From Erysipelotrichia bacterium (GTDB taxonomy: Bacteria > Bacillota_I > Bacilli_A > Erysipelotrichales > Erysipelotrichaceae), in NCBI GenBank assembly GCA_009929095.1, contig SABF01000003.1:1-30019 (forward strand): a stretch of 30,019 nt of DNA. The letters run 5' to 3'. The notes under the pieces are model-generated. The model saw nothing but the letters and a program-made list of their open reading frames with translations, was not told the origin of the DNA and ran no database searches. The translations under genes and the position numbers were made by a program. This document shows positions 4,055-30,019 of the stretch, in pieces; positions within the stretch are counted from its first letter, which is position 1, and every line of letters begins with the position of its first letter.

Positions 4055-4075
4055 ACGAACGAGGAACACTGAACA

Positions 4076-9235: not shown

Positions 9236-9236
9236 A

Positions 9237-9291: not shown

Positions 9292-9303
9292 ATGGACAGT
9301 ACT

Positions 9304-9333: not shown

Positions 9334-9348
9334 GCAGTCGGAGGCCTA

Positions 9349-10056: not shown

Positions 10057-10088
10057 ATAGAACTCAACAGAACGGAGATATGAAATAG

Positions 10089-10742: not shown

Positions 10743-11179
10743 TGGAGCTGATATGTCGGTCATTTGAGGAACTTTCTGTTCGGGAACTCTATGAAATTCT
10801 AAAACTGAGAGTGGATGTATTTGTCGTAGAGCAGAACTGCCCATACGAAGAACTGGACCGCAGAGATTTCCAGGCAATGCATATCTTTATGAAAGATGAA
10901 GATGGAATTGAGGCTTATCTCAGAGTCATGGAGCGCGGTGTTCAGTTTGAAGATGCGGCTGCGATCGGAAGAGTGGTAGTACGCCGACGGCGGCAGGGCT
11001 ATGGAACAGCACTGCTTGCGGCAGGTATCAAATGTGCTGAAACAAAGATGAACGCAAAGCGCATACGTCTGGAAGCACAGACCTATGCAGTGAAATTCTA
11101 TGAGAATGCCGGATTTCAGATCTGCTCAGAACCATTTCTTGAGGATGGCATTCCGCATGTTCAGATGATGCGTCAGTAA
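10742..11179 (+). CDS. ElaA-like GNAT N-acetyltransferase, 145 aa
   Basis: This is a small GNAT-fold acetyl-CoA dependent acetyltransferase. The start ELSVRELYEILKLRVDVFVVEQNCPYEELDRRD is the signature of the ElaA group. The acetyl-CoA pyrophosphate-binding segment appears as IGRVVVRRRRQGYGTALL (about residues 75-92), and AVKFYENAGF near the C terminus is the usual end of the fold. The length is normal for ElaA. The substrate is not known. It is the last gene of the three-gene unit and is followed by a probable terminator. Confidence 0.88.
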   Translation: MELICRSFEELSVRELYEILKLRVDVFVVEQNCPYEELDRRDFQAMHIFMKDEDGIEAYLRVMERGVQFEDAAAIGRVVVRRRRQGYGTALLAAGIKCAETKMNAKRIRLEAQTYAVKFYENAGFQICSEPFLEDGIPHVQMMRQ

Positions 11180-11183
11180 GCAG

Positions 11184-11211
11184 AGATCCCTCAGCAATGA
11201 AGGATCTTTTC
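11184..11211 (+). terminator. Probable terminator after the acetyltransferase
   Basis: AGATCC (11184-11189) and GGATCT (11202-11207) form a six-pair stem with a 12-base loop, followed by TTTT. It is short but well placed behind the stop at 11179. Confidence 0.5.
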
Positions 11212-11301
11212 TGTATCCTGGATTTCGGTTCCGCATTCATGGGGACATGTATGCATGACCAGTGCGAAACAGCCATATTGCGGCATGCCGTTCGAGTTCT
11301 G

Positions 11302-11331
11302 TTCCATGAATAATTCTGACTGCGGTATAAT
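11302..11331 (+). promoter_or_regulatory. Promoter of the Y-family polymerase gene
   Basis: A perfect TATAAT (11326-11331) follows TTCCAT (11302-11307), a weak -35, after 18 bases. Just upstream and touching the -35 lie three GTTC units at 11290, 11296 and 11301. The rest of the 11212-11385 gap shows nothing else. Confidence 0.5.
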
Positions 11332-11385
11332 CGAATCACGCGGACTGAATTCTGATCATTGATGAAACTAAGGAGGAACAGATTC

Positions 11386-12894: not shown

Positions 12895-13307
12895 GCAGCT
12901 ATGATGACATCATTCATCTTCCGCATCATGTTTCCAGAAATCATCGGCCGATGTCCATGTCAGACAGGGCGGCGCAGTTCATGCCGTTTGCAGCACTGAC
13001 AGGATATGACGCAAAAATCAGAGAATCCTCTCGGCTGACAGAAGAACGGATGGATCTGGATGAGAATGAACAGGATGAACTGAATATGAAACTGCAGACT
13101 CTCAAAGAGCGGCTTGCTTATGGACCGATTGCAGAGATTGCATACTTTCAGGAAGATGAGCGCAAGGAAGGCGGCAGGTACCTGACGAACCGAAATGAAG
13201 TGAAAAAGATAGAAGATCTGGAGCATCGGCTGATCATGAAAGATGGTACAGCGATCAATTTTGAGGATATGATTCACATTGAAATCTGTGAATTTGAAGA
13301 TAATTGA
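12891..13307 (+). CDS. YolD-like protein, 138 aa
   Basis: The protein carries the YolD-like signature near the N terminus: YDDIIHLPHHVSRNHRPMS, then DRAAQFMPFAALTGYD, followed by a charged helix and a small C-terminal sheet (LEHRLIMKDGTAINFEDMIHIEI). YolD-like proteins are habitually encoded directly after UvrX/UmuC-type polymerases and have been proposed to act as UmuD-like accessory subunits. The start overlaps the polymerase stop (ATGA at 12891), so the two products are probably made together. No clear terminator follows; the 240 bases after it hold the next promoter. Confidence 0.85.
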   Translation: MSSYDDIIHLPHHVSRNHRPMSMSDRAAQFMPFAALTGYDAKIRESSRLTEERMDLDENEQDELNMKLQTLKERLAYGPIAEIAYFQEDERKEGGRYLTNRNEVKKIEDLEHRLIMKDGTAINFEDMIHIEICEFEDN

Positions 13308-13486
13308 AAAAAACATTAAGAAAAAGTTTAAAAGAATGACTGCAGGATTTCGTCTGCTTGTCGAACACGCAACCATTCATAATGGTGCAGAGTCATCACA
13401 GAATCGTCAATTTTCTCTCTTCAGAAGAGACCATGAATGCATGGAAATAGTTGGAAATCAAACCATTTTATCGCATAAATAAGGGC

Positions 13487-13516
13487 TTGACTTGCACTTT
13501 TGAGATTGCCTATAAT
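13487..13516 (+). promoter_or_regulatory. Strong sigma-A type promoter of the secreted-protein gene
   Basis: TTGACT (13487-13492), an 18-base spacer and a perfect TATAAT (13511-13516) form the clearest promoter in the window. Transcription should start near 13523, giving an untranslated leader of about 27 bases. Confidence 0.85.
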
Positions 13517-13523
13517 AATCGCG

Positions 13524-13540
13524 TTACCCATTTATTACCC
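13524..13540 (+). repeat. Direct repeat TTACCC, one helical turn apart
   Basis: TTACCC at 13524-13529 and again at 13535-13540 are spaced 11 bp start to start, directly behind the predicted transcription start and before the ATG. The position suits an operator or an RNA-level site. Confidence 0.4.
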
Positions 13541-13549
13541 TTAATTAAA

Positions 13550-14218
13550 ATGAAAAAATTAAAAAAACTGACATGTGCGCTCAGCGCCGCTGCAATGCTT
13601 GTACTGACTGCAGGATTCACTGCTGAAGATTTTTCTGTTGACTCTTTCAAGAACTACGCTCGTGAATTCAAGTCAACTTCCATCGGTGCATGCTCTACAT
13701 CCAGCACCAAGACATATGAGGACTATCGGATGATTACTTCAACCGGCAGTGCTCAATATCAGTACATCCACAATCGCATGACGATAGATGATGAATCCGG
13801 ACTGCTCTATGACGAGGAGGGGTTTGTCGGAGTTGCAATGGGCTATAACTTCGGTGCCATTGGAACTCGATACTATATTGTTCTTGACACGGGAACCATT
13901 ATTCCGGTTGTTAAAGTAGATGCCAAGGCATCCGTAGATGCACCGAACGGCTGCAGTGCTGCTGCTGACGCAAGTGTCATTGAATTTGTTATTGATTCTG
14001 ACCGGGCAAAAGAATTCTTTGGTCAGGGAGCCACTGGTCTGGCTGCTCAGGGCAATCTGAACAACTATGATTCTCTGCACGGAAATATTAAAGATATTGA
14101 ACTGGTATCGGATGAAAAGCTGGAATCCGGTGTCATCTATCAGGATATGCAGACAGCAGATCCGCTTAAGGGTGATGAAGATTCTGATAACATCAAACTG
14201 GTTGAAGGCGGTTACTGA
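13550..14218 (+). CDS. Secreted protein, 222 aa, possible double-psi beta-barrel domain
   Basis: The N terminus is a clear Sec signal peptide: MKKLKK, a hydrophobic core (LSAAAMLVLTAGF), then cleavage near TAGFTA. The mature part contains GVAMGYNFGAIGTRYYIVLDTGTIIPVVKVDAKA followed later by SVIEFVID, which resembles a domain seen in secreted Bacillota proteins with a double-psi barrel fold (3D or RlpA-like); this is recalled by pattern and not certain. The ATG at 13550 is chosen because the signal peptide begins there and the strong promoter lies inside the longer frame. There is no Shine-Dalgarno sequence before it, unlike most neighbours. A strong terminator follows, so it is a single-gene unit. 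Confidence 0.75.
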   Translation: MKKLKKLTCALSAAAMLVLTAGFTAEDFSVDSFKNYAREFKSTSIGACSTSSTKTYEDYRMITSTGSAQYQYIHNRMTIDDESGLLYDEEGFVGVAMGYNFGAIGTRYYIVLDTGTIIPVVKVDAKASVDAPNGCSAAADASVIEFVIDSDRAKEFFGQGATGLAAQGNLNNYDSLHGNIKDIELVSDEKLESGVIYQDMQTADPLKGDEDSDNIKLVEGGY

Positions 14219-14245
14219 TTCACCGTCAAAAATTGCTGAATATAG

Positions 14246-14272
14246 AAATGCCGCAGATGTGCGGCATTTTCT
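14246..14272 (+). terminator. Strong terminator after the secreted-protein gene
   Basis: AAATGCCGCA (14246-14255), loop GATG and TGCGGCATTT (14260-14269) form a perfect ten-pair stem, with T-rich sequence after it. Confidence 0.92.
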
Positions 14273-14361
14273 TTCATTCATCATTGATATGGATTCGCAG
14301 TCAGATCAGATGAAATTGAATCAGTTAGGAAGATTGCGCACCGTGTTTATTCAGTGGTATC

Positions 14362-14370
14362 TGCTATAAT
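14362..14370 (+). promoter_or_regulatory. Extended -10 promoter of mutS
   Basis: TGC followed by TATAAT (14365-14370) is an extended -10 element; no good -35 is seen. Transcription would start near 14377, about five bases before the first ATG of mutS. Confidence 0.55.
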
Positions 14371-14381
14371 TACCTACGCGT

Positions 14382-16967
14382 ATGAACGAAGAAGAAATGA
14401 AAAAGGAAAACTCTGTGACGGCAGTAAAGAAGGAAGATTATTCCCCGATGATGCAGCATTATCTGAGCGTCAAGGAACAGTATCCTGATGCTCTGCTCTT
14501 CTATCGTGTTGGTGACTTCTATGAGATGTTTTTAGAGGATGCAGTCATCGCAAGCAAAGAACTCGACCTGGTGCTGACAGGCAAGAATGCCGGACTTAAG
14601 GACAGAGTGCCGATGTGCGGTGTTCCTCATCATGCAATCAGCAGCTATCTGCAGAGACTGACTCAGCGAGGCTACAAGATAGCCATCTGTGAACAGATGG
14701 AAGACCCCGCAGCTGCAGTTGGTCTTGTCCAGAGAGATGTGATCCGGGTTGTCACTCCCGGAACAGTCATGGACGAAGATGAGGTAGGCAGTGCCAAGGA
14801 TTCAGTCTATCTCTGCGCAGTAGAAGACTGCAGCTATGGATATTCACTTGCATTTGCGGAGATGTCCACCGGAGAAAACTTTATCGAACGGATTCCCCAT
14901 AAGGAAAGTCTGCTTCTTCAGACACTGCTCAAGAATGATGTCAGAGAGGCGGTTTTAAAGACCGGCTTTGACCACCATGCAATCAAGCTGCTCAGAGAAA
15001 TGAGAGTGGTAATTTCTTATTGCGATGCTGCAGATATTCATGACAACTATTTGCCGCTGGCTGAACGGATCACGAAAGATTCCGATCGAGCAGCCTACGG
15101 CCGTATGCTGAATTACCTGGAAGCGACACAGAAACATGCACTTGAGCATCTTCAGACAGCTGCCATCGAATCGGAAGATGAAGTTCTGTATATGGATTTC
15201 AATACACGCCAGAATCTGGAACTGATTGCACCGCTGCACCCAGGGGCGGCGAAATGTGAAACGCTCTGGACATTCCTGGATGCGTGCCGCAGTGCCATGG
15301 GATCCCGCCTGCTGAAGAAATGGATTGAAAAGCCTCTGGTGAAACAGGCGCAGATCGAACAAAGATATGATCGTACTGGCTGGCTGATCCGGCATTTTAT
15401 GGAGCGGGCAAAACTGAGAGATCATCTTTCTGGTATATATGATCTGCAGAGATTGATCGCCAGAGTAGCGATGAACAGCGCCAATGCGATTGACTGTCAG
15501 CGTCTTTCCAAGACACTGCTGGAAGTACCGGGCATTCTTTCGGCTGTGAAGTCTGAAGAATTTGCGTCCTATGAAACAGCAGATCCGCTGCTAGCGCTGT
15601 CTGACGTTCTGAAGAATGCGTTTGTGGATAATCCGCCGGTGCTCATATCAGAAGGCGGAATATTCAGAGACGGCTATTCCAAAGAACTTGATGAAGCAAG
15701 AGCGATTCAGAACAGCGGACGTCAGTTTATCATAGATATGGAAGCGCGGGAGAAGGAACGCACCGGCCTCAAAATGCTGAAGATCGGCTATAACCGTGTA
15801 TTCGGCTATTATATTGAAGTTTCCAAAGCGGCCGCAGCCCAGGTAAAGGATGAATGGGGCTGGGTGCGCAAGCAGACACTGGTCAACAATGAACGATTCA
15901 TCTCACCGGAGCTTAAAGAGAAGGAAGACCAGATTCTGCACGCAGAAGAGAATGCAATTCGCATTGAGAAGCAGCTGTTCGCTTCGGTGATTGAACGGAT
16001 TCGTCAGGATCTTCCCAGGCTCCAGAAACTCTCTCTGGTTCTTTCGGAACTGGACTGCTACGGAGCATTCGCTGAAGTATCTTCAAAATTCGGCTATGTT
16101 CGGCCCGTGTTTACGGAAGACGAATTGAATATAGAACAGGGACGTCATCCGATTCTGGATGAGATGATGAAAGACCCGAGATATGTATCCAACAATCTGC
16201 AGATGGATAAGGACAGATCTATCCTGCTGATTACCGGACCGAATATGGGCGGCAAATCCACCTATATGCGTCAGGTGGCACTGACGGTCATCATGGCTCA
16301 GATTGGCTGCTTTGTATCGGCTAAGAAGTGTGAGATGCCGCTTTTTGACAAGATCTTTACTCGCATTGGAGCCTCTGATGATATTCTCAGCGGTCAGTCA
16401 ACATTCATGGTGGAAATGACAGAGGCCAACCGGGCTCTGCAGGAAGCGACTTCTCATTCTCTGATCATCTTTGATGAGATCGGAAGAGGAACTTCAACTT
16501 ATGACGGTATGGCTCTGGCTCAGGCAATGATCGAATACATTGCCGCATGTCTCCATGCCAAGACACTTTTCAGCACCCACTACCATGAACTGACTACCCT
16601 GTCAGAATCTATCGGAGTGGTAAAGAATGTACATGTGGCGGTCAAAGAAGATAATGAAAAGGTTACCTTCCTCTACAAGATCAAGGATGGCTCTGCAGAT
16701 CGTTCTTACGGCATCAACGTAGCACGACTGGCCGGTCTTCCGGAATCCGTACTGGAGCGCGCCAAAGGGCTGCAGAAAGAACTGGAGTCCCATAAGCGAG
16801 TCGTACAGCAGTCTTATCAGCTGGTGGAGATGAAGAAAGAGGATCCGCAGGCAGAAGAAATCAAGAACACTCTGAAGACAATCAGGGCAGATGATCTGTC
16901 ACCGCGCGAGGCATGGCAGCTGATCGCGGATCTTTCCGAATTGGCAAACAAGAAAGAAGATGAGTAA
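14382..16967 (+). CDS. mutS: DNA mismatch repair protein MutS, 861 aa
   Basis: MutS recognises mismatches and small loops and recruits MutL. The mismatch-reading Phe-x-Glu is visible as F46-Y-E48 in RVGDFYEMF. The connector, lever and clamp domains follow, then the ATPase with Walker A GPNMGGKS at residues 619-626, Walker B in [13 protein letters not shown] and STHYHEL. The length is normal. The start is uncertain: ATG 14382 has no Shine-Dalgarno and lies close to the predicted transcription start, ATG 14397 is also possible, and GTG 14415 has AAAGGA seven bases upstream and would give an N terminus closer to other MutS proteins. The stop directly precedes the uvrA ATG, so mismatch and nucleotide excision repair genes form one unit. 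Confidence 0.97.
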
Positions 16968-19835
16968 ATGACGGAACAGGACAAAATCATTATCCGGGGA
17001 GCCCGTGAGAATAATCTGAAAAATATCTCGCTGGAGATTCCCCGCAATAAACTCGTAGTCATGACGGGTCTTTCCGGTTCCGGAAAGACCTCTCTTGCCT
17101 TTGATACGATTTATGCAGAAGGACAGAGAAGATATGTAGAATCACTGAGTGCCTACGCCAGACAGTTTCTTGGCGGCGTATCCAAACCGAATGTAGAATC
17201 AATCGAGGGGCTTTCTCCGGCTATATCAATTGATCAGAAGACCACTTCCAATAATCCGCGATCCACAGTTGGGACAGTGACTGAGATCTATGACTATCTT
17301 CGACTGCTCTATGCAAGAGTTGGTATTCCCTACTGCCCGAATCACAGCATACCGATTACCGGTCAGACCATTGCTGAAATGATGGATGCAGTATGGAAGT
17401 ATCCTGATGGCACAAAGATGACGGTCATGGCGCCTATCATCCGAAACAAGAAGGGGACCTATAAAGAGACCTTTGATAAACTGCAGCGCGATGGCTATGT
17501 GCGTGTACGCGCAGATGGCGAGATCAGAATGCTTGAGGATGACATCACGCTTGATAAGAACAGGAAACATGATATCGATGTGGTTGTAGACAGAATCATC
17601 AAGAAAGAAGATGCACGGGGCCGTCTCCATGATTCTATGGAAACTGCACTGAATCTGGCTGACGGCATGGTGCTTGTGCTGGCAGATGATCAGGAGAATC
17701 TGTATTCAAGCAACTATGCCTGCAAGATCTGTGGATTCTCAGTGCCGACACTTGAGCCGAGGCTGTTTTCATTCAATGCTCCGCTGGGGGCCTGTGATGT
17801 TTGCCATGGCCTTGGATTTACGGAAGAAGTAGATGTAAATCTGCTGATTCCGGATCCTTCAAAATCTATCCGTGAGGGCGGTATCAGATTCTATAAAAAT
17901 ATTGTTGATTCCGATAATATCGAATGGCAGACATTCGAAATACTGTGCCGTGCTTATAAGATCGATCTGGACAAACCGATTAGTAAGCTGACAGACAGTC
18001 AGATGCAGACTATTCTGCATGGCTCGGATAAGCCGATTAAGTATTCCATTACGTCTTCCGGCGGCAATACGTATTCTCGCAACGATTATATAGAAGGCAT
18101 CAAGGATTTGATTGAACGCCGCTATGTTGAGACTGCAAGCGCCATGACCAAGGACTGGTATCATTCTTTCATGACTGAATCAGTATGCCCGAAATGTCAC
18201 GGTGCCAGACTGAATGAACAGGCACTGTCAGTCAGAGTGCAGGATAAGAATATCAATCAGTTCACGTCCATGTCAGTAATTCAGTCACTGGCCTGGATTG
18301 AGCATCTGAAATTGAATGAGACTCAGACAAAGATCGCTGATCTTGTACTGAAGGAAATTCGCAGCCGTCTCACCTTCCTAAAGGACGTAGGTCTTGAGTA
18401 TCTTACCCTGGACCGGCTGGCCGGGACCCTTAGCGGCGGTGAAGCACAGCGCATCCGCCTTGCAACGCAGATTGGATCCAGACTGTCCGGTGTTCTGTAT
18501 GTACTGGATGAGCCCAGTATCGGTCTGCATCAGAGAGACAATGCCAAGCTGATTGCGACTCTGAAGAATATGCGGGATCTTGGCAATTCGTTAATAGTTG
18601 TAGAACATGATGAAGAGACCATGATGTCTTCGGACTGGATTGTGGATATCGGACCGGGAGCTGGAATTCACGGCGGCCGTCTTGTGGCAGAAGGCACTCC
18701 GCAGGATATTATCAATAATCCGAATTCCATAACCGGACAGTATCTGTCCGGCATCAAACGCATCGAAGTTCCGGAGACCAGAAGAAAAGGATCCGGCAAG
18801 TGTGCTGAGATCAAGGGTGCTTCTGAACATAACCTGAAGCATATTGATGTGAAGCTTCCGCTAGGCAAGCTGGTGCTGGTAACCGGTGTATCAGGATCTG
18901 GCAAGAGCACACTCGTCAATGAAGTGTTTATGAAGGCAGTACTTCAGAATCTTGGGCGATCCAAAATCAGACCTGGAAAGTATGATTCCATTAGGGGTCT
19001 AGATCATATTGATAAGGTGGTCCAGATCGATCAGGATCCGATCGGAAGAACACCGCGATCCAATCCAGCCACCTATACCGGTGTATTCGATGATATTCGT
19101 GACGTGTTTGCAAGAACGCCGGAAGCGAAGCTGAGAGGCTATGACAAGGGTCGATTCTCTTTCAATGTGAAAGGCGGACGCTGTGAAGCATGTCAGGGCG
19201 ATGGAGTAAGAGTGATATCGATGAACTTCCTGCCGGATGTATATGTGCCATGTGAAGTGTGCCATGGCAGAAGATACAATGAAGAGACACTGCAGTGTAC
19301 CTTTAAAGGCAAGTCCATCTATGATGTGCTGGAAATGACAATTGAAGAGGCACTGGAATTGTTTGTCAACCAGCCGAAGATCAAAAACAAGCTGCAGACG
19401 CTGTATGATGTAGGTCTTGGCTATATGAAGCTTGGACAGTCTTCAACAGAGATATCCGGCGGCGAGGCACAGCGGGTCAAGCTTGCCAGTGAACTGCAGA
19501 AGAAGCCAACCGGGAAAACAGTCTATGTACTGGATGAACCGACTACCGGACTGCATACCGATGATGTGAAGAGACTGATTGAAGTACTGCAGCGCATTGT
19601 GGACGGCGGCAATACAGTACTGGTTATTGAACATAATCTGGATGTCATTAAGTGCGCAGACTGGATTATTGATCTGGGACCAGAAGGCGGAGATCATGGC
19701 GGTGAAATCATTGCGGAAGGAACCCCGGAAGACGTTGTTAAAGTTAAGCGGTCCTGGACAGGCCAGTATCTGAAAAAAGCGCTGGACTGGACCAGAGATA
19801 TGGAACAGAAGGCAAGAGAAAAGCAGCAGAATTAG
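16968..19835 (+). CDS. uvrA: UvrABC system protein A, 955 aa
   Basis: UvrA is the damage-scanning ATPase of nucleotide excision repair. Two ABC modules are visible: Walker A GLSGSGKT at residues 34-41 and GVSGSGKS in the second half, signatures [17 protein letters not shown] and [15 protein letters not shown], and Walker [12 protein letters not shown] and [11 protein letters not shown]. Zinc modules appear as CKICG with CDVCHG and as CEACQG with CEVCHG. The length is normal. The ATG follows the mutS TAA with no gap and only a weak ribosome binding site, suggesting coupling. uvrB is not next to it, which is unusual because uvrB-uvrA is the common pair in Bacillota. A strong terminator follows. 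Confidence 0.98.
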
Positions 19836-19841
19836 CCGGAG

Positions 19842-19873
19842 GAAGATCAGCTGGAAACAGTTGATCTTCTTTT
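19842..19873 (+). terminator. Strong terminator of mutS-uvrA
   Basis: GAAGATCAGCTG (19842-19853), loop GAAA and CAGTTGATCTTC (19858-19869) form a 12-pair stem with one G-T wobble, followed by TTTT. A group IIC intron relic begins four bases further on. Confidence 0.95.
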
Positions 19874-19876
19874 CTG

Positions 19877-20250
19877 GTGCGCCCGGCATAGCGATAGCAA
19901 GGTAATGAAAGTCCACTGCGTACTTGGCAGCAGGAAACGTTAGCCGAAAGCAGGGGTGTCCGTCGCAAGGCGGAATCTGAAGGAAGCCGGATGAGGCGCT
20001 TAACCAAAGCGGGCAAATCTCTGAATTGACGAATAGAAATGTCATATGAGTCAGAATCGCACGGACAAGAGCACCAAACAGTTCAAAGTCCAGTACTGCA
20101 CGGAATGCGAAGCATTAAATAGCACAGGTACATGGAGAGAAAGCGGTCAGTCTGGCATCGGGCAGAGGAAGATGCCGGAAGATCCTGAACGCGATATGGA
20201 TTGGGACATTCCAGAAAGATGAATCTATCAAACGCATATTGTGCATGCGG
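19877..20250 (+). mobile_element. Group IIC intron relic (5' ribozyme domains, no reverse transcriptase)
   Basis: The sequence starts GTGCGCCCGGCAT, the usual 5' end of a bacterial group IIC intron (compare GTGTGCCCGGCAT recalled from the Oceanobacillus iheyensis intron). Further landmarks appear in the same order as in that ribozyme: GTGAAAGTCC-like (TGAAAGTCC), CGTTAGCC, GGGGTGTCCGTCGC, GGAATCTGAAGGAAGC, TCATATGAG, CAAAGTCC, and a domain II-III like GAGAGAAAGC. It sits directly behind the uvrA terminator hairpin, the known target type of class C introns. The reverse transcriptase/maturase gene and a domain V hairpin are not found, so it cannot move by itself and probably does not splice. 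The left edge is sharp; the right edge near 20250 is a guess. Confidence 0.8.
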
Positions 20251-20418
20251 CGATTAGCAAAAGGCGAAACAGCAAATAATCAATACATCTGGTTCAGTGA
20301 AAAAACAGAATTCAGAGTATTGCGGATAAGGTTGCTATATTCTGGTTTCTTTGAATGACACTGTTCATTCTCAATGTCTGGAAACTGCCAGACGCCACCG
20401 TTTGAAGAGGTGAAGTGA

Positions 20419-20643
20419 CCAGGCAAACTCTGGTTTATCTTTTTTGAACGCAGTCTTGATTATCATCATAGAGAAACAGATTCGCTGAGGACAGATGCGG
20501 TCTGGTTTCCGTATGAACAGCATGGACTGTCGGGGCAGAGACTGCTGCAGGTATCAGAAGATATTAAGGAGAATTGTCGTTTGCTGAATTTATCAGTAAT
20601 TAATCACTCGCACTGGAGTTCTGACATTGCACCGATCGATTGA
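20419..20643 (+). pseudogene. Possible gene relic, 74 codons, no start
   Basis: Between a TGA at 20416 and a TGA at 20641 one frame is open and reads as plausible protein, including DYHHRETDSL, AVWFPYEQHGL and INHSHWSSDIAPID. There is no start codon with a ribosome binding site and I cannot name a family. It could be chance. Confidence 0.2.
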
Positions 20644-20711
20644 AATCATCGGCAGTATCCGGCACCGCATAGTCTGAAAGTGCCCGGGGATTCTTTTATA
20701 TTGGAAAACAA

Positions 20712-20760
20712 GTGAATATAACGCGCGAATTCACAATATGTGTACAAAAATATGTACATA
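20712..20760. promoter_or_regulatory. Pair of AT-rich palindromes, possible operator
   Basis: GTGAAT (20712-20717) and ATTCAC (20729-20734) form an interrupted inverted repeat. TGTACA occurs at 20741-20746 and 20753-20758, the second inside the perfect palindrome TATGTACATA (20751-20760). They lie upstream of the CRISPR locus. The function is unknown. Confidence 0.3.
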
Positions 20761-20837
20761 CAGCCGGAAACGTATTGCATCTGCGGGATACAGGAATAAA
20801 ATAGAAATGACAGGAATTGAAAGCATCTGCCCATAAA

Positions 20838-20860
20838 ACAAAAAAAGCCTCCTACGAGGC
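20838..20860 (-). terminator. tracrRNA terminator
   Basis: On the minus strand GCCTC, loop GTAG and GAGGC are followed by seven T (plus-strand A run 20840-20846). This is the last hairpin of the tracrRNA. Confidence 0.9.
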
Positions 20861-20945
20861 ACTGGCGAACCAGCAGTTTTACTGCCGAAGCAGATTGATT
20901 TTCACTTATCCTTGTCATTGCCAACAGCAGTAGTGTTCTGTTGAC
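20840..20945 (-). ncRNA. tracrRNA of the type II-A CRISPR-Cas9 system
   Basis: Read on the minus strand, the RNA begins near GTCAACAGAACACTAC, then has an anti-repeat of about 24 bases (ACTGCTGTTGGCAATGACAA and GGAT) that pairs with the array repeat with one wobble and one mismatch. An AAGT bulge and GAAAAT then pair with the first bases of the repeat (GTTTTC). This lower stem, bulge and upper stem order is the same as in the Streptococcus pyogenes duplex. After the anti-repeat come CAATCT, hairpin CTGC-TTCG-GCAG, hairpin ACTGG-TTCG-CCAGT-like (CTGG/CCAG) and the terminator hairpin with T7. Its orientation, opposite to cas9, and the GTTTT start of the plus-strand repeats agree with crRNA transcription on the plus strand. 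The 5' end is inferred from the promoter and the 3' end from the T run. Confidence 0.9.
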
Positions 20946-20951
20946 ATACAA

Positions 20952-20979
20952 ATAATAGCACAAGTCGGGGAGGCGTCAA
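20952..20979 (-). promoter_or_regulatory. tracrRNA promoter overlapping the cas9 ribosome binding site
   Basis: On the minus strand TTGACG (20979-20974), a 16-base spacer and TATTAT (20957-20952), preceded by TGC, form an extended -10 promoter. Transcription would start near 20945. The -35 and spacer lie in the cas9 ribosome binding site GGGGAGG (20966-20972), directly before the cas9 ATG at 20981. Confidence 0.7.
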
Positions 20980-20980
20980 G

Positions 20981-23900
20981 ATGGAAAACAAAGGAAATAA
21001 AGAGGTAAACTACAGCATTGGTCTAGATATTGGCACTACATCAGTTGGTTGGGCAGTCACAGACGAGCAGGCGAAACTTCTCAAGAAGGGAAACCAGCCT
21101 CTCTGGGGCTACAATCTGTTTGAAGAAGCTAGTGCAGCTGATGACAGACGAGTCTTCAGGGGCACAAGGAGAAGATATAAGCGGAGAAAGCAGCGGGTAA
21201 AACTGCTGCAGGATTTCTGCGCACCGATGATTTCAGAAGTGGATCCGCTGTTTTACAGGCGGTTGGAAAACAGCTATCTGGTTGAAGAAGACAGAAAAAG
21301 AGCAGTGATGGGAGATCCGGGCAACATCTTTTTCGTGTCAGGCATTACCGACAAGGAATTCTATAAAAAGTATCCAACGGTCTATCATTTGCGAAAAGCG
21401 CTCATGCAGTCTGATGAAAAAGCAGATCCGCGGCTGATTTATCTGGCTCTGCACCATATTGTCAAGTACAGAGGAAATTTTCTATATGAAGGACAGGATC
21501 TGCAGAAAGCAATTGGGGAAGACGCTGCTGCAGAGAAGATGAAGGTTCTGATTGAGGATTTGTTTTCTGACGCTGATAATGGCTGTTTTGCAATTGACTG
21601 CAAGCAGCTGATCTCTATCCTGATCAATTCCGAGATTTCTAGAAAAGAGCGCCTTAAGAACTGTCAGAGTCTTGTGACCGACAAAACTGCTAAAGAATTC
21701 ATCAAGGAAATCGCAAATGCAGTTCTTGGATATAAGTTCAGCGTAGAGAAATTATTCGGTGTCGAATCAAAGACAATCAGTTTCTCTGATTCTGATATTG
21801 ATGATAAAAAGACAGAACTGGAGTCCAGTCTCAAAGACAGCTATGAAAATTTCGAGATTCTGGAAAGCATCTATAGCTTTGCTGTTTTAAAGAATATCCT
21901 GAGCAAATCCAGCGATATGTCCATCAGCAGCAATATGATTGCCATATATGAGAAACACGGGAATGACTTGACACTCCTTAAATCGGTCCTTAGACAGAAC
22001 AAAAATGCTTATGAAAAGATGTTTTCTGAAAATGGAATCTATCAGAAGTATATTAAGAATCCGTCTAAAACATCACAGGATGATTTATACAAAGGTATCG
22101 AGAGTGTGCTCAAGGAACTGGATGACACCTCTGACATTCAGAAAATACGCAGTGAAATGCAGATCCTTGCATTTCTGCCGCGTCAGAACTCCATTTCCAA
22201 CGGCGCAATTCCTTACCAGCTTCATCTTGAGGAGATGAAACAGATCATCAGAAAACAAGGCAGATATTATAGATGCCTGAAAGAGAATGAAGGCAAACTG
22301 GAGTCGATTGTATCTTTCAGAATTCCATACTATGTCGGTCCGCTTGTGAGCCATGAACAGAATCAGTTTGCCTGGATGAAACGCAGTGACAATTCCAGTG
22401 ATCCAATTCGTCCGTGGAGCTGGGATAAACAGATCGACCGGGAAGCTACCGCAGCAGAATTTATTAAGAGAATGCAGAATCATTGTACTTATCTGCTGGC
22501 AGAAGATACACTGCCGAAGAACTCAATTCTGGTTAATCGGTTCAATGTGATGAATGAATTGTGCAAAATGAGAGTTGACGACAAACTTCCGTGTGCTGAA
22601 GTAAGGAATCAGATTATTGATGATCTGTTTCTGAAGAAAACCGAAGTAAAGAAAAAGGATCTGAAAAACTGGCTGATAGATCATCAGCTTGCATCAGCAG
22701 AAAGTGCAATCACCGGCATTAATGATCAGAAATTCAATTCGAGCCTGAAATCTGAGATCAAGTTCAGAAGCATATTCGGGGAGGATTTTGACCGAAGAAT
22801 TGAAGATATTGAAACACTGATTGACTGGCTCACAGTATATAATAGCAAGGACATTCTCAAAACAAGAATAGAAAATACATTCAAAGGCGAACAAAAGCTT
22901 ACCGATCAGCAGATGAAAGAGGTTTTAAGTCTGCACTACACGGGATATGGCAGATTTTCCAGGAAGCTGATCAATGGGCTGGTATCCAGAAACCAGACAG
23001 ACTATGTCGGCACCATCATGGAGATCATGGAGCAGTCACAGCCGCCTAAAAACGAGAATTTCATGCAGATACTCAATAACCCTGATTATGGTTTTTTGCA
23101 GCAGATCGAGGACGAAAATGAAGTGGACAGCGGACATCTGTCGTATTCACGTGTCGCGGAACTTCCAGGATCACCTGCACTAAAGAGAGGAATCTGGCAG
23201 TCTATCAGAGTTGTGCAGGATATTGTCAAGTATATGAAGAGAGAACCTGAGAATATCTATCTTGAATTTGCCAGAAACGAAGGAGAGAAGAAACAGACCA
23301 TCAGCAGATACAGACAATTGGAAAAAATCTATAAAGAGTATCTGTCCACAAGCGATATCAAGAAAGAACTTGAGAAGAATGAGAAGAATCTTGATAATGA
23401 CAGACTTTACTTGTACTTCATACAGCAGGGAAAATGCATGTATTCCGGGTTGCCGCTTGATATCAGCCAGCTAGATAAATATCAGATAGATCATATTCTT
23501 CCACAGTCCTATATTGTCGATAATTCAGTCGAGAATCGTGCGCTGGTGATTTCTGAACAAAATCAGAGAAAAGCAGATTCATTGCTTCTTGATGACAGCA
23601 TTGTGAAACATCAGTATCTGTGGTGGAAATCACTAATGGACATGAACCTCATCGGCAGCAAGAAATTTCATAACCTAACAAGAAAAACAGTAACAGAACA
23701 AGAAAGAGCAGGGTTTGTTGCAAGACAGCTTGTAGAGACAAGGCAGATCTGTGTTCATGTAAAAAACATTCTTTCCAGTTACTATACAGCGAGCAATGTT
23801 CGTACGCTTCATGCCCCATTATCAAGTGAATTCAGAAAAAAGTTTGGGATTTATAAAATTCGAGAACTTAATAGTGTTCATCATGCTCAGGATGCATATC

Positions 23901-25009
23901 TTGCCTGCCTAATGGGCGGATTTGTTCAGAATCGTTTCCCGTATCTTGGCAGCGAAGGGAAAATAGAATATCGCTATATAAAGGATGACATAGTTGATCG
24001 TATCAAGATCGAATATGTCAAGCATCATGGACGTGACACGGTAAAGGATGAACGTATCATGTACAGCTTTATTGTTAATAAAATGAAAGATGAAATTCTT
24101 TATAACAAGGATACCGGAGTGGTTTACTGGGGTGGCACTGAACAAATTGAATATATCAAGAAAATCTTCAGTTATAAGAATTACTTCTTTAGTTACCAGA
24201 CAAGGCAAGCGGATGGGAAGCTATACGATGCAACGATATATTCAAAAGATGAATTTGCAAAGGAAGTGAATACTGGAATCGCCACAAAGAGAACCAAACC
24301 CGTGAATAAATACGGCGGTTATAAGAGTATAAAGAAATCTTATGGATTGGCTGTCAGATACAGTAAAGGAAAAAAGACTCTGGGGACAGTAGTCAGTATT
24401 CCAATCGCGTTACTGCAGAGGCCAGACCAAGAAGCAGATTATGTTAAAAAAGAGCTTGGTGTACCAAATGTGGAGATCATCAGAAAGATCGAACTTGGAC
24501 AGGCATTCATTGAAAACAATTGTCTGTTTACAATGACATCTCCAGAAGAGTGGAGAGTCCGGCAGCCAATATTCCTCTCTGCGGAAGATCGAACTGTTTT
24601 ATATGCGGCAAAGCATAGAAAGGATAAGCCTTCCACAGAAGAACTTTCTCGAGTGTATTTTAACCTACTTAAGAAGATATATTTGCAGATACCGCTTCTG
24701 CGTCGCAAGATCGATGGTGCTCTTGGGAAAATTATCAACGCAGATGAGACGAATGTGCTTTCGTCTGAAGAATTAACAAAACAAGCAATGACTGAATTCG
24801 AAAAGACAGATACGGAGACGCAGATCAAGGAAATTGATCAATTGTTGTATGCGATCACGATTAGCGGCGGAGGAAGTATGGACATTGGAAGCGTGCCGGT
24901 TTATGCTTCGCAATTTGGTAGATTTTATTGTAAGTCAATAAACCTGGATGCGACTCAGTGGGTCTTTACTTCTCCGTCAGGTATCTATAAAACAACTGTT
25001 AAACTATGA
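20981..25009 (+). CDS. cas9: CRISPR-associated endonuclease Cas9, type II-A, 1342 aa
   Basis: Cas9 binds the crRNA:tracrRNA duplex and cuts both strands of matching DNA. RuvC-I is LDIGTTSVGWAV with catalytic D16, followed by the arginine-rich bridge helix RRVFRGTRRRYKRRKQRVKL. RuvC-II is IYLEFARNE with E762. The HNH nuclease has YQIDHILPQS with H838 and NRALVISEQNQRKAD near 859-873. RuvC-III is HHAQDAYL with D971. All catalytic residues are present, and length and positions are close to those of S. pyogenes Cas9, so it should be active. The ATG at 20981 has GGGGAGG eight bases upstream. The stop overlaps the cas1 start (ATGA). No convincing plus-strand promoter is seen directly before it. The PAM preference cannot be read from the sequence. 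Confidence 0.98.
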   Translation: MENKGNKEVNYSIGLDIGTTSVGWAVTDEQAKLLKKGNQPLWGYNLFEEASAADDRRVFRGTRRRYKRRKQRVKLLQDFCAPMISEVDPLFYRRLENSYLVEEDRKRAVMGDPGNIFFVSGITDKEFYKKYPTVYHLRKALMQSDEKADPRLIYLALHHIVKYRGNFLYEGQDLQKAIGEDAAAEKMKVLIEDLFSDADNGCFAIDCKQLISILINSEISRKERLKNCQSLVTDKTAKEFIKEIANAVLGYKFSVEKLFGVESKTISFSDSDIDDKKTELESSLKDSYENFEILESIYSFAVLKNILSKSSDMSISSNMIAIYEKHGNDLTLLKSVLRQNKNAYEKMFSENGIYQKYIKNPSKTSQDDLYKGIESVLKELDDTSDIQKIRSEMQILAFLPRQNSISNGAIPYQLHLEEMKQIIRKQGRYYRCLKENEGKLESIVSFRIPYYVGPLVSHEQNQFAWMKRSDNSSDPIRPWSWDKQIDREATAAEFIKRMQNHCTYLLAEDTLPKNSILVNRFNVMNELCKMRVDDKLPCAEVRNQIIDDLFLKKTEVKKKDLKNWLIDHQLASAESAITGINDQKFNSSLKSEIKFRSIFGEDFDRRIEDIETLIDWLTVYNSKDILKTRIENTFKGEQKLTDQQMKEVLSLHYTGYGRFSRKLINGLVSRNQTDYVGTIMEIMEQSQPPKNENFMQILNNPDYGFLQQIEDENEVDSGHLSYSRVAELPGSPALKRGIWQSIRVVQDIVKYMKREPENIYLEFARNEGEKKQTISRYRQLEKIYKEYLSTSDIKKELEKNEKNLDNDRLYLYFIQQGKCMYSGLPLDISQLDKYQIDHILPQSYIVDNSVENRALVISEQNQRKADSLLLDDSIVKHQYLWWKSLMDMNLIGSKKFHNLTRKTVTEQERAGFVARQLVETRQICVHVKNILSSYYTASNVRTLHAPLSSEFRKKFGIYKIRELNSVHHAQDAYLACLMGGFVQNRFPYLGSEGKIEYRYIKDDIVDRIKIEYVKHHGRDTVKDERIMYSFIVNKMKDEILYNKDTGVVYWGGTEQIEYIKKIFSYKNYFFSYQTRQADGKLYDATIYSKDEFAKEVNTGIATKRTKPVNKYGGYKSIKKSYGLAVRYSKGKKTLGTVVSIPIALLQRPDQEADYVKKELGVPNVEIIRKIELGQAFIENNCLFTMTSPEEWRVRQPIFLSAEDRTVLYAAKHRKDKPSTEELSRVYFNLLKKIYLQIPLLRRKIDGALGKIINADETNVLSSEELTKQAMTEFEKTDTETQIKEIDQLLYAITISGGGSMDIGSVPVYASQFGRFYCKSINLDATQWVFTSPSGIYKTTVKL

Positions 25010-25878
25010 GTTGGCGTACAGTATATATATCAAGTCAATGTCATTTGAGTTTTAAAAATAATTATCTGATGATACGGACAGATGAAGTTAAACAGATTCA
25101 TCTGTCCGAAATCAACACACTCATCATTGATACCAATATGTCTACTATGTCAGTGTATGTCATGAATGAATTGATTAAAGCAAAGATAAAAGTGATTATT
25201 TGCGATGAAAAGCATAATCCATCAATGGAACTGACACCATATTATGCGGCTTATAACAGTTCAAAAATGGTTTCAAAAGAAGTAAACTGGCAGCTGCAGA
25301 ATTGCGGAGAAATCTGGAAGAAAATAGTAAAGTACAAGATCATGTATCAAGCAAGAGTTCTTGCATATGCAGATAAAGAGATAAGCCAGAAACTCATTAC
25401 ATACATTGATCAAATTGAAAATGATGATGTGACCAATCGTGAAGGACATGCGGCAAAGGTGTACTTCAATTCTTTGTTTGGTACAAATTTTTCGCGAGAC
25501 GACGAAAACAATATCAATGCGTATCTAAACTATGGATATACGATACTTCTTTCTATGTTTAACAGGGAGATAGCCAATAACGGATATATTACTCAGATCG
25601 GCATACATCACAGAGGCCCTACTAATCCATTTAATCTATCCTGTGATTTTATGGAACCGTTCAGACCGCTGATAGATAAGTTTGCATATGATAATCAGGA
25701 AGTGTACTTTGGAAAGAACGCAAAACTGGATCTGGTAAATCTGACAAACAGACAATTGATATATCAAGAGAAAAAAATGTACTTAACAAATATCATAGGA
25801 ATCTATGTAACAAAACTGTTGGCGGGAATAGAGGCTGGGGGAATTGATGATCAATGGTTCGAATACAGCGAGGTGTAG
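25006..25878 (+). CDS. cas1: CRISPR-associated endonuclease Cas1, type II-A, 290 aa
   Basis: Cas1 is the integrase that, with Cas2, inserts new spacers at the leader end of the array. Catalytic residues are visible: E146 in NREGHAAKVYF, a histidine at 201-202 in GIHHRGPTNPFNLSCD, and E217 in DFMEPFRP. The start SWRTVYISSQCHLSFKNNYL is typical of type II-A. The ATG overlaps the cas9 stop by four bases, so translation is coupled. The base composition from here to csn2 looks more AT-rich than that of the chromosomal genes to the left. Confidence 0.97.
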   Translation: MSWRTVYISSQCHLSFKNNYLMIRTDEVKQIHLSEINTLIIDTNMSTMSVYVMNELIKAKIKVIICDEKHNPSMELTPYYAAYNSSKMVSKEVNWQLQNCGEIWKKIVKYKIMYQARVLAYADKEISQKLITYIDQIENDDVTNREGHAAKVYFNSLFGTNFSRDDENNINAYLNYGYTILLSMFNREIANNGYITQIGIHHRGPTNPFNLSCDFMEPFRPLIDKFAYDNQEVYFGKNAKLDLVNLTNRQLIYQEKKMYLTNIIGIYVTKLLAGIEAGGIDDQWFEYSEV

Positions 25879-25882
25879 ATTT

Positions 25883-26188
25883 ATGAGAATGCTTGTATTC
25901 TTTGATCTACCGGTGATAACAAATGCAGACAAAAAAGAATATAGGCACTTTCGTACTTATATGATCAAAGACGGATATTTGATGGTTCAAGAAAGTGTTT
26001 ATTCAAAACTTGTGACTAATTATGGTGCTTGTGAACTTGAATTAGAAAAATTGAAAAGGAATAAACCTAAATCAGGCCTTGTACAATGTCTCATAGTTAC
26101 AGAGAATCAGTTTGCAGGCATTACATATATATGTGGAGAAAGTCCATATAGAGAATGCAATACAACTGACAGATTGGTGATTATATGA
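25883..26188 (+). CDS. cas2: CRISPR-associated protein Cas2, 101 aa
   Basis: Cas2 bridges the two Cas1 dimers in the spacer integration complex. The start RMLVFFDLPVITNADKKEYRHFR has the ferredoxin-like first strand with the conserved D8, followed by GYLMVQESVYSKL, usual for type II-A Cas2. The ATG at 25883 is chosen because the family begins here and GAGGTG lies eight bases upstream, inside the end of cas1; the longer frame from 25844 would add 13 unrelated residues that overlap cas1. It starts four bases after the cas1 stop and overlaps csn2 by four. Confidence 0.96.
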   Translation: MRMLVFFDLPVITNADKKEYRHFRTYMIKDGYLMVQESVYSKLVTNYGACELELEKLKRNKPKSGLVQCLIVTENQFAGITYICGESPYRECNTTDRLVII

Positions 26189-26868
26189 AGGTGTCAATCA
26201 ACGGAATTGATCAACAGTTATGTATACAGGAGCCGGGTGTTGGACTGCTGAATGTACACAACAAACAATTGTATCGTTCAACATGCAGGTTTCTGCGAAC
26301 AAAGCTTGATGAATCAGATTACAATGACATAGTTTTCTTTGAAGATAACGAGCGAATTAATAGTAAGGAGATTCTGTATATTCAAGATATTGATTTATAT
26401 AGTTTTGACACCAAGCAGATCGTGGAAAGAATTGTTAAGTCTTATATTGCAGAATTGCATGAGTCGGTAATAGAGAAAAACAAAGAAACAGAAAGATATA
26501 GGAGCCTGATTCAGCCCGTTTTACAATCGTTGAATCTCCTAGAAGTTGACTACGATTACAAAGAGGAACTTGATTCATCAATGTATTACAAAATGCTCGG
26601 AATTGTAATTGAACCTGATGAGGAAATGCCAATTGTTGAGCGAATGAAATCTATAATTAATGTTGAATCAAAGATTTTTAGAAAGAAGTTCTATATTATC
26701 AATCACGTATTACCAATGTTGACAGGAAGTGAAATTACAGAGTTAAATAAGTATGTCAATACCAGTAACTGCTATCTGTTGTTTGTGGATTATTTAGCCG
26801 ATAGTGATGTAGTGGTCACTAACAATCTCATTGTAGATGAAGATTACGGCGTATATAGCATTCACTGA
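26185..26868 (+). CDS. csn2: CRISPR-associated protein Csn2, type II-A, 227 aa
   Basis: Csn2 is the subtype II-A marker. It forms a tetrameric ring that slides on double-stranded DNA ends and is needed for spacer acquisition. Position and length (the family is usually about 220 residues) and recognisable stretches such as LLNVHNKQLYRSTCRFLRT near the N terminus and CYLLFVDYLADSD near the C terminus support the call. The ATG overlaps the cas2 stop (ATGA). The gene ends 16 bp before the first CRISPR repeat, so its last part must also hold most of whatever leader functions the array has. Confidence 0.93.
   Translation: MKVSINGIDQQLCIQEPGVGLLNVHNKQLYRSTCRFLRTKLDESDYNDIVFFEDNERINSKEILYIQDIDLYSFDTKQIVERIVKSYIAELHESVIEKNKETERYRSLIQPVLQSLNLLEVDYDYKEELDSSMYYKMLGIVIEPDEEMPIVERMKSIINVESKIFRKKFYIINHVLPMLTGSEITELNKYVNTSNCYLLFVDYLADSDVVVTNNLIVDEDYGVYSIH
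26831..26857 (+). promoter_or_regulatory. Candidate array promoter inside csn2
   Basis: TTGTAG (26831-26836) and TATATA (26852-26857) are spaced 15 bases within the last codons of csn2; transcription would start near 26864, about 20 bases before the first repeat. The match and spacing are only fair. Read-through from the cas operon is an alternative. Confidence 0.3.
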
Positions 26869-26884
26869 AATGAAAGGATTTGAG
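26869..26884 (+). promoter_or_regulatory. Very short CRISPR leader with leader-anchoring sequence ATTTGAG
   Basis: Only 16 bases separate the csn2 stop from the first repeat. The last seven, ATTTGAG (26878-26884), are identical to the leader-anchoring sequence known from streptococcal type II-A systems, where Cas1-Cas2 uses it to choose the integration site. This fixes the leader end on the left, so spacers nearest csn2 are the newest. Confidence 0.85.
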
Positions 26885-29800
26885 GTTTTCGATCCTTGTC
26901 ATTTCCAACAGTAGTAGAACATAAATCCATGAGCAATTCTGGAGTCAGCAGTTTTCGATCCTTGTCATTTCCAACAGTAGTAGAACAATCTGTTGAGCTT
27001 GAAAATGCCATGCTTGGTTTTCGATCCTTGTCATTTCCAACAGTAGTAGAACTCTACTATCCGAATAATTCAGATATGCATGGTTTTCGATCCTTGTCAT
27101 TTCCAACAGTAGTAGAACCCAAAAAATCGAATGAAACTTTTAAACCGTGTTTTCGATCCTTGTCATTTCCAACAGTAGTAGAACCCTTTTACATTCTCCC
27201 GAATCATGCGGATTGTTTTCGATCCTTGTCATTTCCAACAGTAGTAGAACTGGCGCGTATGGAGTTCAATGCGTCGATGCGTTTTCGATCCTTGTCATTT
27301 CCAACAGTAGTAGAACGTGATTTCGCAGAATAATCAGACTATCCAAGTTTTCGATCCTTGTCATTTCCAACAGTAGTAGAACACGGCATCCGGCAACTAC
27401 ATTGCTAACTTCGTTTTCGATCCTTGTCATTTCCAACAGTAGTAGAACACAGATCGCTCTTTCTTTTGCGTATGAACTGTTTTCGATCCTTGTCATTTCC
27501 AACAGTAGTAGAACGACGCGCAGGCACTACGGTCCAGTGCCATGGTTTTCGATCCTTGTCATTTCCAACAGTAGTAGAACTACTTAGTCAGATCGAACTT
27601 GTCAGCGTTCGTTTTCGATCCTTGTCATTTCCAACAGTAGTAGAACGATTCATAGACAAAGACTACCTCTTCCTTTGTTTTCGATCCTTGTCATTTCCAA
27701 CAGTAGTAGAACGCGGCGATTAGTGCGTTGAGGTATTCACCAGTTTTCGATCCTTGTCATTTCCAACAGTAGTAGAACTCTAGTAAAGTATAGTATGCCT
27801 ATTTGTCAGTTTTCGATCCTTGTCATTTCCAACAGTAGTAGAACCCATGTTGTACAGTCCATCACTTTTCCTCCGTTTTCGATCCTTGTCATTTCCAACA
27901 GTAGTAGAACCAAACGTTTTGAATAACGATCGATCTTGGTGTTTTCGATCCTTGTCATTTCCAACAGTAGTAGAACACAGCCTGATTGCCGGAACCGATC
28001 TATGCGGTTTTCGATCCTTGTCATTTCCAACAGTAGTAGAACAGATAATTTTGATGGAAATACATATGTAGGGTTTTCGATCCTTGTCATTTCCAACAGT
28101 AGTAGAACCTTGCGGTAATTCGAAAGAACTTCGCAAGGGTTTTCGATCCTTGTCATTTCCAACAGTAGTAGAACTAACAGACGAAGATGTGGATGCCATT
28201 TTCTGTTTTCGATCCTTGTCATTTCCAACAGTAGTAGAACTGTGGCTAGGTTGAGATTCTTCGATGCCTGGTTTTCGATCCTTGTCATTTCCAACAGTAG
28301 TAGAACAATTCTGAAGGAATCGGAAGTTCTCTTATGGTTTTCGATCCTTGTCATTTCCAACAGTAGTAGAACTCTTCAGATGTGTCCAAGAAATATCAAC
28401 GGGTTTTCGATCCTTGTCATTTCCAACAGTAGTAGAACATATTTATGAAGAACCATACCTTCTTGTATGTTTTCGATCCTTGTCATTTCCAACAGTAGTA
28501 GAACGCAAACACACTATAAATCCGTGTTGCCACGGTTTTCGATCCTTGTCATTTCCAACAGTAGTAGAACAAATTGATGTTGTAGCTGTGATTGGCATAC
28601 GTTTTCGATCCTTGTCATTTCCAACAGTAGTAGAACTTCTTCTTCCGGAAGGAGAATATGAATTCAGTTTTCGATCCTTGTCATTTCCAACAGTAGTAGA
28701 ACTGATGAAGAAGATCTTCGATGATTCTTATTGTTTTCGATCCTTGTCATTTCCAACAGTAGTAGAACCAGACCGTATTCCAGGATTGAGATATTAGGGT
28801 TTTCGATCCTTGTCATTTCCAACAGTAGTAGAACACCTGCAGAACTGATCTGTTGAGATTCTCAGTTTTCGATCCTTGTCATTTCCAACAGTAGTAGAAC
28901 GTGTATCATCAGTTGCCAATTCAGCGGCTGGTTTTCGATCCTTGTCATTTCCAACAGTAGTAGAACGATCAAAGAAGGATCGTACATCAATGGAAGGTTT
29001 TCGATCCTTGTCATTTCCAACAGTAGTAGAACCTTCCGTTTCATCCAGTGATAGAGCTTCGTGTTTTCGATCCTTGTCATTTCCAACAGTAGTAGAACCC
29101 AACTTTCCATCCGCAGAATCCGAACACCGTTTTCGATCCTTGTCATTTCCAACAGTAGTAGAACACAGTTTCATCGTGGGAAATTGGAAGGACTGTTTTC
29201 GATCCTTGTCATTTCCAACAGTAGTAGAACAGTCCCTGTATCCGTAGTACCGAGGTATATGTTTTCGATCCTTGTCATTTCCAACAGTAGTAGAACTACA
29301 CTGGTGAGATCATGAGAAAAGCAAGAGTTTTCGATCCTTGTCATTTCCAACAGTAGTAGAACTATTTATGGCTTAATCATGCACTATTTTAGGTTTTCGA
29401 TCCTTGTCATTTCCAACAGTAGTAGAACTAGTTCGTGCAGGTTTAACAAAAAAGCAAGGTTTTCGATCCTTGTCATTTCCAACAGTAGTAGAACGCTCCA
29501 GCACGGCCACAGCCATCCTGGCATGTTTTCGATCCTTGTCATTTCCAACAGTAGTAGAACGTAGCATACTTAGTATGTCCACTGAAGCAAGTTTTCGATC
29601 CTTGTCATTTCCAACAGTAGTAGAACCCGTCGAGCCAGAGAACAACTGCTTCCGTGGTTTTCGATCCTTGTCATTTCCAACAGTAGTAGAACAACGCGAA
29701 AAAGATTTGCTAATTCTCATTAGTTTTCGATCCTTGTCATTTCCAACAGTAGTAGAACAAAAAGGCGAAAAAGCCACGACAATATATTGTTTTCGATCCT

Positions 29801-30019
29801 TGTCATTTCCAACAGTAGTAGAACGCAAGCCACACCTCAATCGCAGTTGGTGATGTTTTCGATCCTTGTCATTTCCAACAGTAGTAGAACATGCTCTATC
29901 GTTTGTCGACAATCCTCGACGTTTTCGATCCTTGTCATTTCCAACAGTAGTAGAACTTATGTTTAATGCTTTCGAAGCTTCTTGCTGTTTTCGATCCTTG
30001 TCATTTCCAACAGTAGTAG
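26885..30019 (+). CRISPR. Type II-A CRISPR array, 48 repeats visible, continues past the window
   Basis: The 36-bp repeat begins GTTTTCGATCCTTGTC and ends CAACAGTAGTAGAAC. It recurs every 66 bp without exception from 26885 to a last copy at 29987 that is cut after 33 bases by the window edge. This gives 48 repeats and 47 spacers of 30 bp. By eye all repeats are identical, including the last visible, so no degenerate trailer end is reached. The GTTTT start, the ATTTGAG leader on the left and the minus-strand tracrRNA all agree that crRNA is made from the plus strand. The spacers look unrelated to one another and none was seen to match the rest of the window. Confidence 0.99.

Follow-up and report, generated by a model that had tools for sequence, protein, structure and literature searches.

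A type II-A CRISPR-Cas9 locus with its own tracrRNA between uvrA and hprK in an Erysipelotrichia bacterium

Does the last third of a 30,019-nucleotide stretch of an Erysipelotrichia bacterium (assembly GCA_009929095.1, contig SABF01000003.1, positions 1 to 30,019; here called the window) hold a complete type II-A system of clustered regularly interspaced short palindromic repeats (CRISPR) and CRISPR-associated (cas) genes, and do its Cas9 and guide RNA differ from those already described? An earlier note, made by inspection of the letters, had proposed both. The window corresponds to contig C38 of a genome assembled in 507 contigs. We hold it to be very probable that the locus is a complete, intact-looking type II-A CRISPR-Cas adaptive immune locus; its anatomy is ordinary for this type, and its novelty lies in the sequences of Cas9 and of the guide RNA.

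The genes cas9, cas1, cas2 and csn2 are located on one strand and overlap or lie a few bases apart. The cas9 gene (20981–25009, plus strand) codes for a protein of 1342 amino acids with bridge helix, REC, HNH, RuvC and PAM-interacting domains (PAM, protospacer adjacent motif). Its stop codon is overlapped by the start of a type II cas1 (25006–25878, plus strand), followed by cas2 (25883–26188, plus strand), recognized by a family match and with its start taken from the sequence, and by csn2 (26185–26868, plus strand), whose product of 227 amino acids fits the type II-A Csn2 family models. The profile matches of Cas9, type II Cas1, Cas2 and type II-A Csn2 all exceed the curated cut-offs, with a family score of 806 bits (cut-off 100) for Cas9, bearing out the gene assignments of the earlier note. 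Since the four genes overlap or abut, there is no space for a further gene between cas9 and the array; the operon contains csn2 and lacks cas4. The single large effector retains the active-site residues of both RuvC and HNH: D16, E762, H838 and D971, which had been read from the translation before, are the same in all 15 Cas9 proteins aligned, as are D837, N861 and H968. Catalytic positions close to those of Streptococcus pyogenes Cas9 (SpCas9) are usual in Cas9 proteins of such size, so that the coincidence is uninformative.

Downstream of csn2, a CRISPR array extends from position 26885 to the window end at 30019 (plus strand). A repeat scan found 47 copies of a 36-nucleotide repeat, free of mismatches and at a spacing of 66 bases, which enclose 47 different 30-nucleotide spacers, followed by a 48th repeat cut by the end of the window; the reversed pattern, used as a control, gave no hit. 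The long array of the earlier note thus stands as far as the 47 spacers of the window are concerned, but it does not end there. The end of the window overlaps with another contig of this genome, C158 (in a comparison of 91 bases, spacer 47 among them), which adds five spacers and a final repeat with three mismatches, with hprK about 110 bases further on, bringing the full array to 52 spacers, all different. The degenerate final repeat lies at the end distal to csn2, as expected if new spacers are inserted at the csn2 end.

Between csn2 and the first repeat there is a leader of only 16 bases (26869–26884, plus strand). It ends in ATTTGAG (26878–26884), one of the conserved 3' leader ends of type II-A systems (ATTTGAG, CTRCGAG or CG) and the heptamer to which the earlier note had pointed; in the part of the source consulted, ATTTGAG is the group 1 leader end and occurs in 87 of 167 loci (PMC5382924). 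For comparison, 575 related loci were reduced to the 80 best. An array was obtained from 55 of these (from 56 of 81 when the window is counted); the repeat was at least 34 bases long in 53 loci including the window, and 52 of these were measurable (L098 was dropped). The window leader is the shortest of these 52. Leaders of 34 relatives with a similar leader end measured 34–135 bases (median 72), a count from which 17 loci with another leader end or a doubtful first repeat were excluded; among the latter are the Companilactobacillus leaders of 19, 20, 26, 26 and 31 bases.

On the opposite side of the operon lies a predicted trans-activating CRISPR RNA (tracrRNA), divergent from cas9. Its core (20841–20938, minus strand), comprising anti-repeat, structured tail and terminator, forms a predicted duplex with the repeat and occupies the position and strand usual in relatives; its 5' end probably lies a little upstream of the core. 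The anti-repeat (20899–20933, minus strand) would pair with the CRISPR repeat, and the computed duplex energy of –43.6 kcal/mol compares with a mean of –12.2 and a lowest value of –29.3 kcal/mol for 2000 random 42-base pieces from window bases 1–20,000. An intrinsic terminator is predicted at 20847–20860 (minus strand; one found against 0.2 expected in shuffles), and a predicted promoter, TTGACG-16-TATTAT with TG preceding the second hexamer, at 20952–20979 (minus strand; one found against 0.4 expected in shuffles) immediately adjoins the cas9 start codon, so that tracrRNA, promoter and terminator together span 20841–20979 on the minus strand. In a fold of a longer RNA, the tail can form two short hairpins ahead of the terminator; folded alone, its lowest-energy form merges both hairpins into one. 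The complementarity of the predicted tracrRNA to the repeat, the ATTTGAG leader end and the fit of Csn2 to the II-A models agree with the earlier assignment to type II-A with its own tracrRNA. Genes, array and pairing capacity can thus be read directly in the DNA.

In S. pyogenes, a long form of the tracrRNA, tracr-L, turns Cas9 onto its own promoter, and we considered whether the window tracrRNA region also makes such a form. At the cas9 start codon, the strand of the tracrRNA carries a repeat-like GTTTTCCATC-TTGAC. This element, however, pairs weakly with the anti-repeat (–7.7 kcal/mol, against values down to –17.8 kcal/mol for 20-base pieces elsewhere on that strand), and the predicted fold of the long RNA lacks the tracr-L arrangement. 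Autoregulation by tracr-L was therefore rejected, as the repeat mimic 5' of the anti-repeat does not fold onto it, and we regard such a form as highly improbable here.

An anti-repeat was located no more than 300 bases from the start of cas9 in 43 of the 52 measurable loci (window included), in every case on the minus strand; in the remaining nine, none was found within this distance. Repeat position 6 pairs with the tracrRNA in all 43, as A-U in 34, as G-C in eight, and as C-G in the window only. The duplex program looks for pairs and is hence biased towards pairing, but both alternative pairs are genuine differences. Among all 54 repeats containing GTTT, position 6 is A in 45, G in eight and C in one. 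The lower stem of the window guide duplex would therefore end in C-G, in place of the A-U or G-C of the 42 other loci and of the A-U of SpCas9, and this makes it probable, judging from these sequences, that guide recognition differs from that of SpCas9. The suggestion of the earlier note that guide recognition may differ is in this respect well supported.

Like the type II-A system of S. pyogenes, with its order cas9-cas1-cas2-csn2, 36-nucleotide repeat, 30-nucleotide spacers and guide composed of lower stem, bulge and upper stem, the window locus shows this gene order, these repeat and spacer lengths and this guide layout. At the level of the protein, structure entries of 1368–1372 residues, which we take to be SpCas9, match most of the window Cas9 with about 540–549 bits; among solved chains, a different Cas9, 9vj8, scores highest (571 bits). 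Faecalibaculum rodentium, the host of FrCas9, also belongs to the Erysipelotrichaceae. As far as described in the part of the source consulted, FrCas9 has cas1, cas2, csn2 and cas9 beside the array, a tracrRNA that lies upstream of cas9 and runs in the opposite direction, and the PAM NNTA (PMC8931148); the window shares with it the position of the cas genes beside the array and a tracrRNA upstream of and opposed to cas9.

Protein comparison places the window Cas9 at some distance from named proteins. Among 6637 scored matches, restricted to the candidates sharing most words, of which 120 were listed, the best were 63, 50 and 48% identical; P0014 and P0018 in the list are labelled Erysipelotrichaceae. 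The named organisms nearest to it are Sharpea, Kandleria, Thomasclavelia and Faecalibacillus, whose Cas9 proteins are about 35–42% identical (Sharpea azabuensis, 38%) and form a separate set in the tree. Four loci of this group (L070, L072, L073 and L075) have the architecture and the ATTTGAG leader end of the window, and three of the four have an anti-repeat upstream of cas9; the repeats of the group begin with GTTTTA, whereas that of the window begins with GTTTTC. In a quick tree of 91 Cas9 proteins (the window, 22 listed proteins and 68 of the 80 retained loci), the window Cas9 is nested among type II-A Cas9 proteins and pairs with P0001 (support 100) inside a set of 18 (support 100) that includes none of the 68 loci; the tree loci were drawn from the best 80 only, and a named member of this set may exist elsewhere. 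Of 149 relatives (with the own genome counted), 33 had a Cas9 match. Matches from within the genus were 27–49% identical, with the higher values over short pieces; vertical descent of cas9 within the genus is not evident from these comparisons. Three Cas9 loci on viral contigs were 31–33% identical in the best segment.

The novelty could be merely apparent, the protein being an already characterized Cas9 under another name; large catalogues of Cas9 proteins have been published, with supplementary tables beyond the comparison made here. Against this stand the 63% identity of the nearest scored protein, the 38% of the Sharpea azabuensis Cas9, and the fact that three pieces of the window repeat matched no paper in the library searched; in the main text of a 2020 Cas9 catalogue, the taxon names sought were not found either. 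We therefore consider this explanation most unlikely. The same figures agree with the impression of the earlier note that these sequences were not recognizable ones, and the near-identical characterized Cas9 which it had named as a refutation did not appear among the scored candidates.

From what is established for the family, we infer expression, processing, cleavage and PAM use along the following lines. Cas1, Cas2 and Csn2, with Cas9, would insert 30-base spacers at the junction of ATTTGAG and repeat, and the array would be transcribed in the direction of hprK. Each CRISPR RNA (crRNA) repeat would pair with the divergently transcribed tracrRNA, the duplex would be cut by host RNase III, and the crRNA would guide Cas9 to cleave phage DNA beside a PAM. 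With a leader of 16 bases, the promoter of the array must lie within csn2, still more upstream, or in the array itself; transcripts of the array probably begin within csn2 or arise by read-through.

Several observations weigh against a complete locus at work as an immune system. The source genome is fragmentary (74.6% complete), and the plus strand of 26500–26884 showed no promoter-like site. No exact protospacer was found when the whole window array was compared with 50,697 phage and 72,556 plasmid records, nor in 70 genomes of the genus and 272 of the family (four and two candidates, respectively, scored per genome). Probing of IMG/VR took in seven of the 52 spacers (1, 2, 6, 7, 12, 27 and 45), the other 45 lying outside it, and six of the seven probes gave no credible target; the loci met by the seventh, spacer 27, are relatives of a target and not a copy of it. 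As to the individual searches, the phage and plasmid comparisons returned 36 and two records with best E values of 0.08 and 3, all rejected as protospacers, as each of the listed matches crosses a repeat-spacer border by our own reckoning. Among the matches listed, the best outside the own genome had E values of 0.02 (genus) and 8.6e-4 (family) per genome, which is chance level when 70 and 272 genomes are searched. In IMG/VR, no match was obtained with exact 20-mers from spacers 1 and 2 or with wobble-masked forms of spacers 12 and 45; a 15-mer of spacer 7 met 103 stretches, agreeing at best in 22 of 30 bases, and an 18-mer of spacer 6 met one locus with 21 of 30 bases, taken as chance. At the peptide level, a scan of 138 loci gave no further convincing target in its 30 top-ranked rows.

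The short leader, the missing promoter-like site upstream of the array and the lack of an exact protospacer in the collections searched would also fit a locus whose sequence is intact but which is silent or in decay, its very short leader having lost the array promoter and its array persisting as a fossil record. The 47 mismatch-free repeats of the window, the open reading frames of all cas genes and the retained catalytic residues of Cas9 speak for maintenance instead, and the array could be served by a promoter inside csn2, by a weak promoter-like site within the array (26962–26989; overall three sites were found against 1.8 expected), or by read-through from the cas operon. A silent locus thus appears improbable to us, and an intact-looking immune locus remains the preferred reading.

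Spacer 27 (28637–28666, plus strand) has a probable origin in a phage gene of the family phrog_2698. Searched as a pattern with every third base free, it met 27 stretches in IMG/VR, all of which encode (V/I)LLP(E/D)G(E/D)Y(E/D)F in one reading frame, the one already placed first by codon usage before the search; all 27 proteins match phrog_2698, a family of unknown function, and the best phage copies share 27 of 30 bases with the spacer. Across the same set of 134 viral loci, none of the other 51 spacers exceeded 22 matching bases, although these loci were picked by pattern and do not constitute a fair lottery. The fit might be due to chance, as the AAGGAG and ATG of the spacer resemble a common ribosome-binding site with start codon; matches of 20–22 bases to the middle of the spacer recur in genus genomes, and the own genome matches it at 23 of 30 bases (G000:C75:11476-11505, L390). 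The concentration of all 27 pattern matches in one gene family and in the frame ranked first beforehand argues against chance, which we consider unlikely, and these sequences indicate with good probability that spacer 27 is of phage origin. The C75 match itself resembles a ribosome-binding site with start codon, likely a gene start, and is probably fortuitous; it provides no evidence of self-targeting. The family phrog_2698 occurs in 14 of the 272 family genomes, and spacer 27 agrees with those 14 loci at 23 of 30 bases at best. Its members are conserved phage proteins with the motif LLPEGDYDF (L262–L288); in L275, the one locus examined, the gene lies beside that of a Sak4-like annealing protein, which makes a role on single-strand DNA plausible.

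The 3' flanks of the 27 copies, counted by hand, have C (26) or T (1) at position 1, G (14), C (8), A (4) or T (1) at position 2, G (19) or A (8) at position 3, and T in all 27 at position 4. As T is absent from position 3 throughout, a PAM needing T there, such as the NNTA of FrCas9 (PMC8931148, as far as consulted), appears disfavoured if the true target keeps these codons; NGG or NGR are possible on the same premise. Matching the spacers to phage sequences, the check proposed in the earlier note, thus led to a phage gene family for spacer 27, but to no exact protospacer, and no PAM could be derived.

SpCas9 reads its PAM with two arginines. One of them is retained by the window Cas9 in the C-terminal alignment, but the profile alignment does not settle which, and only one PAM-reading arginine seems evident. 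The PAM may differ from that of SpCas9. The last 264 Cas9 residues alone matched no solved structure at E 0.01.

The locus is preceded by uvrA (16968–19835, plus strand), identified by a gene match. A piece of a group II intron (19959–20151, plus strand; sequence match) lies between uvrA and the tracrRNA; comparable pieces occur at other sites of its genome and in 18 further genomes of the genus. The following stretch of about 690 bases (20152–20840) contains no recognizable gene.

By a hand tally, uvrA and hprK matches share a contig in 45 of the 70 genus genomes, with a gap of at most 600 bases in 33 and of 1.7–11.2 kb in 12; no cas genes were seen in two of the 12 wide-gap genomes, whose open frames were read by eye. 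Cas1 is present in 14 of the 70, on the uvrA contig only in the window genome and in the closest relative, G038 (HprK 91%, UvrA 90% identical). Directly after uvrA, G038 carries cas3, cas8e, cse2, cas7e, cas5e, cas6e, cas1e and cas2e of a type I-E system (L349, L363, G038:C8), with an array of a different repeat that ends about 290 bases short of the contig end. None of these type I-E genes was matched by the window sequence that separates uvrA from the tracrRNA, and G038, 62% complete, is not among the 33 of 149 relatives with a Cas9 match. On another of its contigs (L350, G038:C9:1-1300), about 130 bases before hprK, a short sequence resembling the II-A repeat, GATCCTTGTCATTCTCAACA, matches the repeat core GATCCTTGTCATTTC-CAACA with one gap. 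Several points weigh against a II-A relic: its ungapped match covers only 21 of 36 bases, whereas 60 shuffles reached up to 20, no full II-A repeat was found in G038 with up to three mismatches allowed, and the type I-E contig and the relic contig are not joined. Replacement of a II-A ancestor by type I-E in G038 is hence possible, but unproved.

Taken as a whole, the wider proposal has two parts: that the window Cas9 represents an untested clade of II-A effectors with a scaffold of its own (the C-G end of the lower stem and a different tail) and a PAM that is neither NGG nor NNTA, and that uvrA-hprK is a class-swap site, with II-A here and I-E beside a decayed II-A repeat in the closest relative. 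We advance it tentatively, as somewhat less probable than its negation. The locus adds a legible guide scaffold and a Cas9 from a branch for which a limited literature search found no laboratory work, and this Cas9 lends itself to direct tests for guide orthogonality and for a new PAM. In G038, the type I-E system at the same address provides a small natural example of the possible replacement of one CRISPR type by another.

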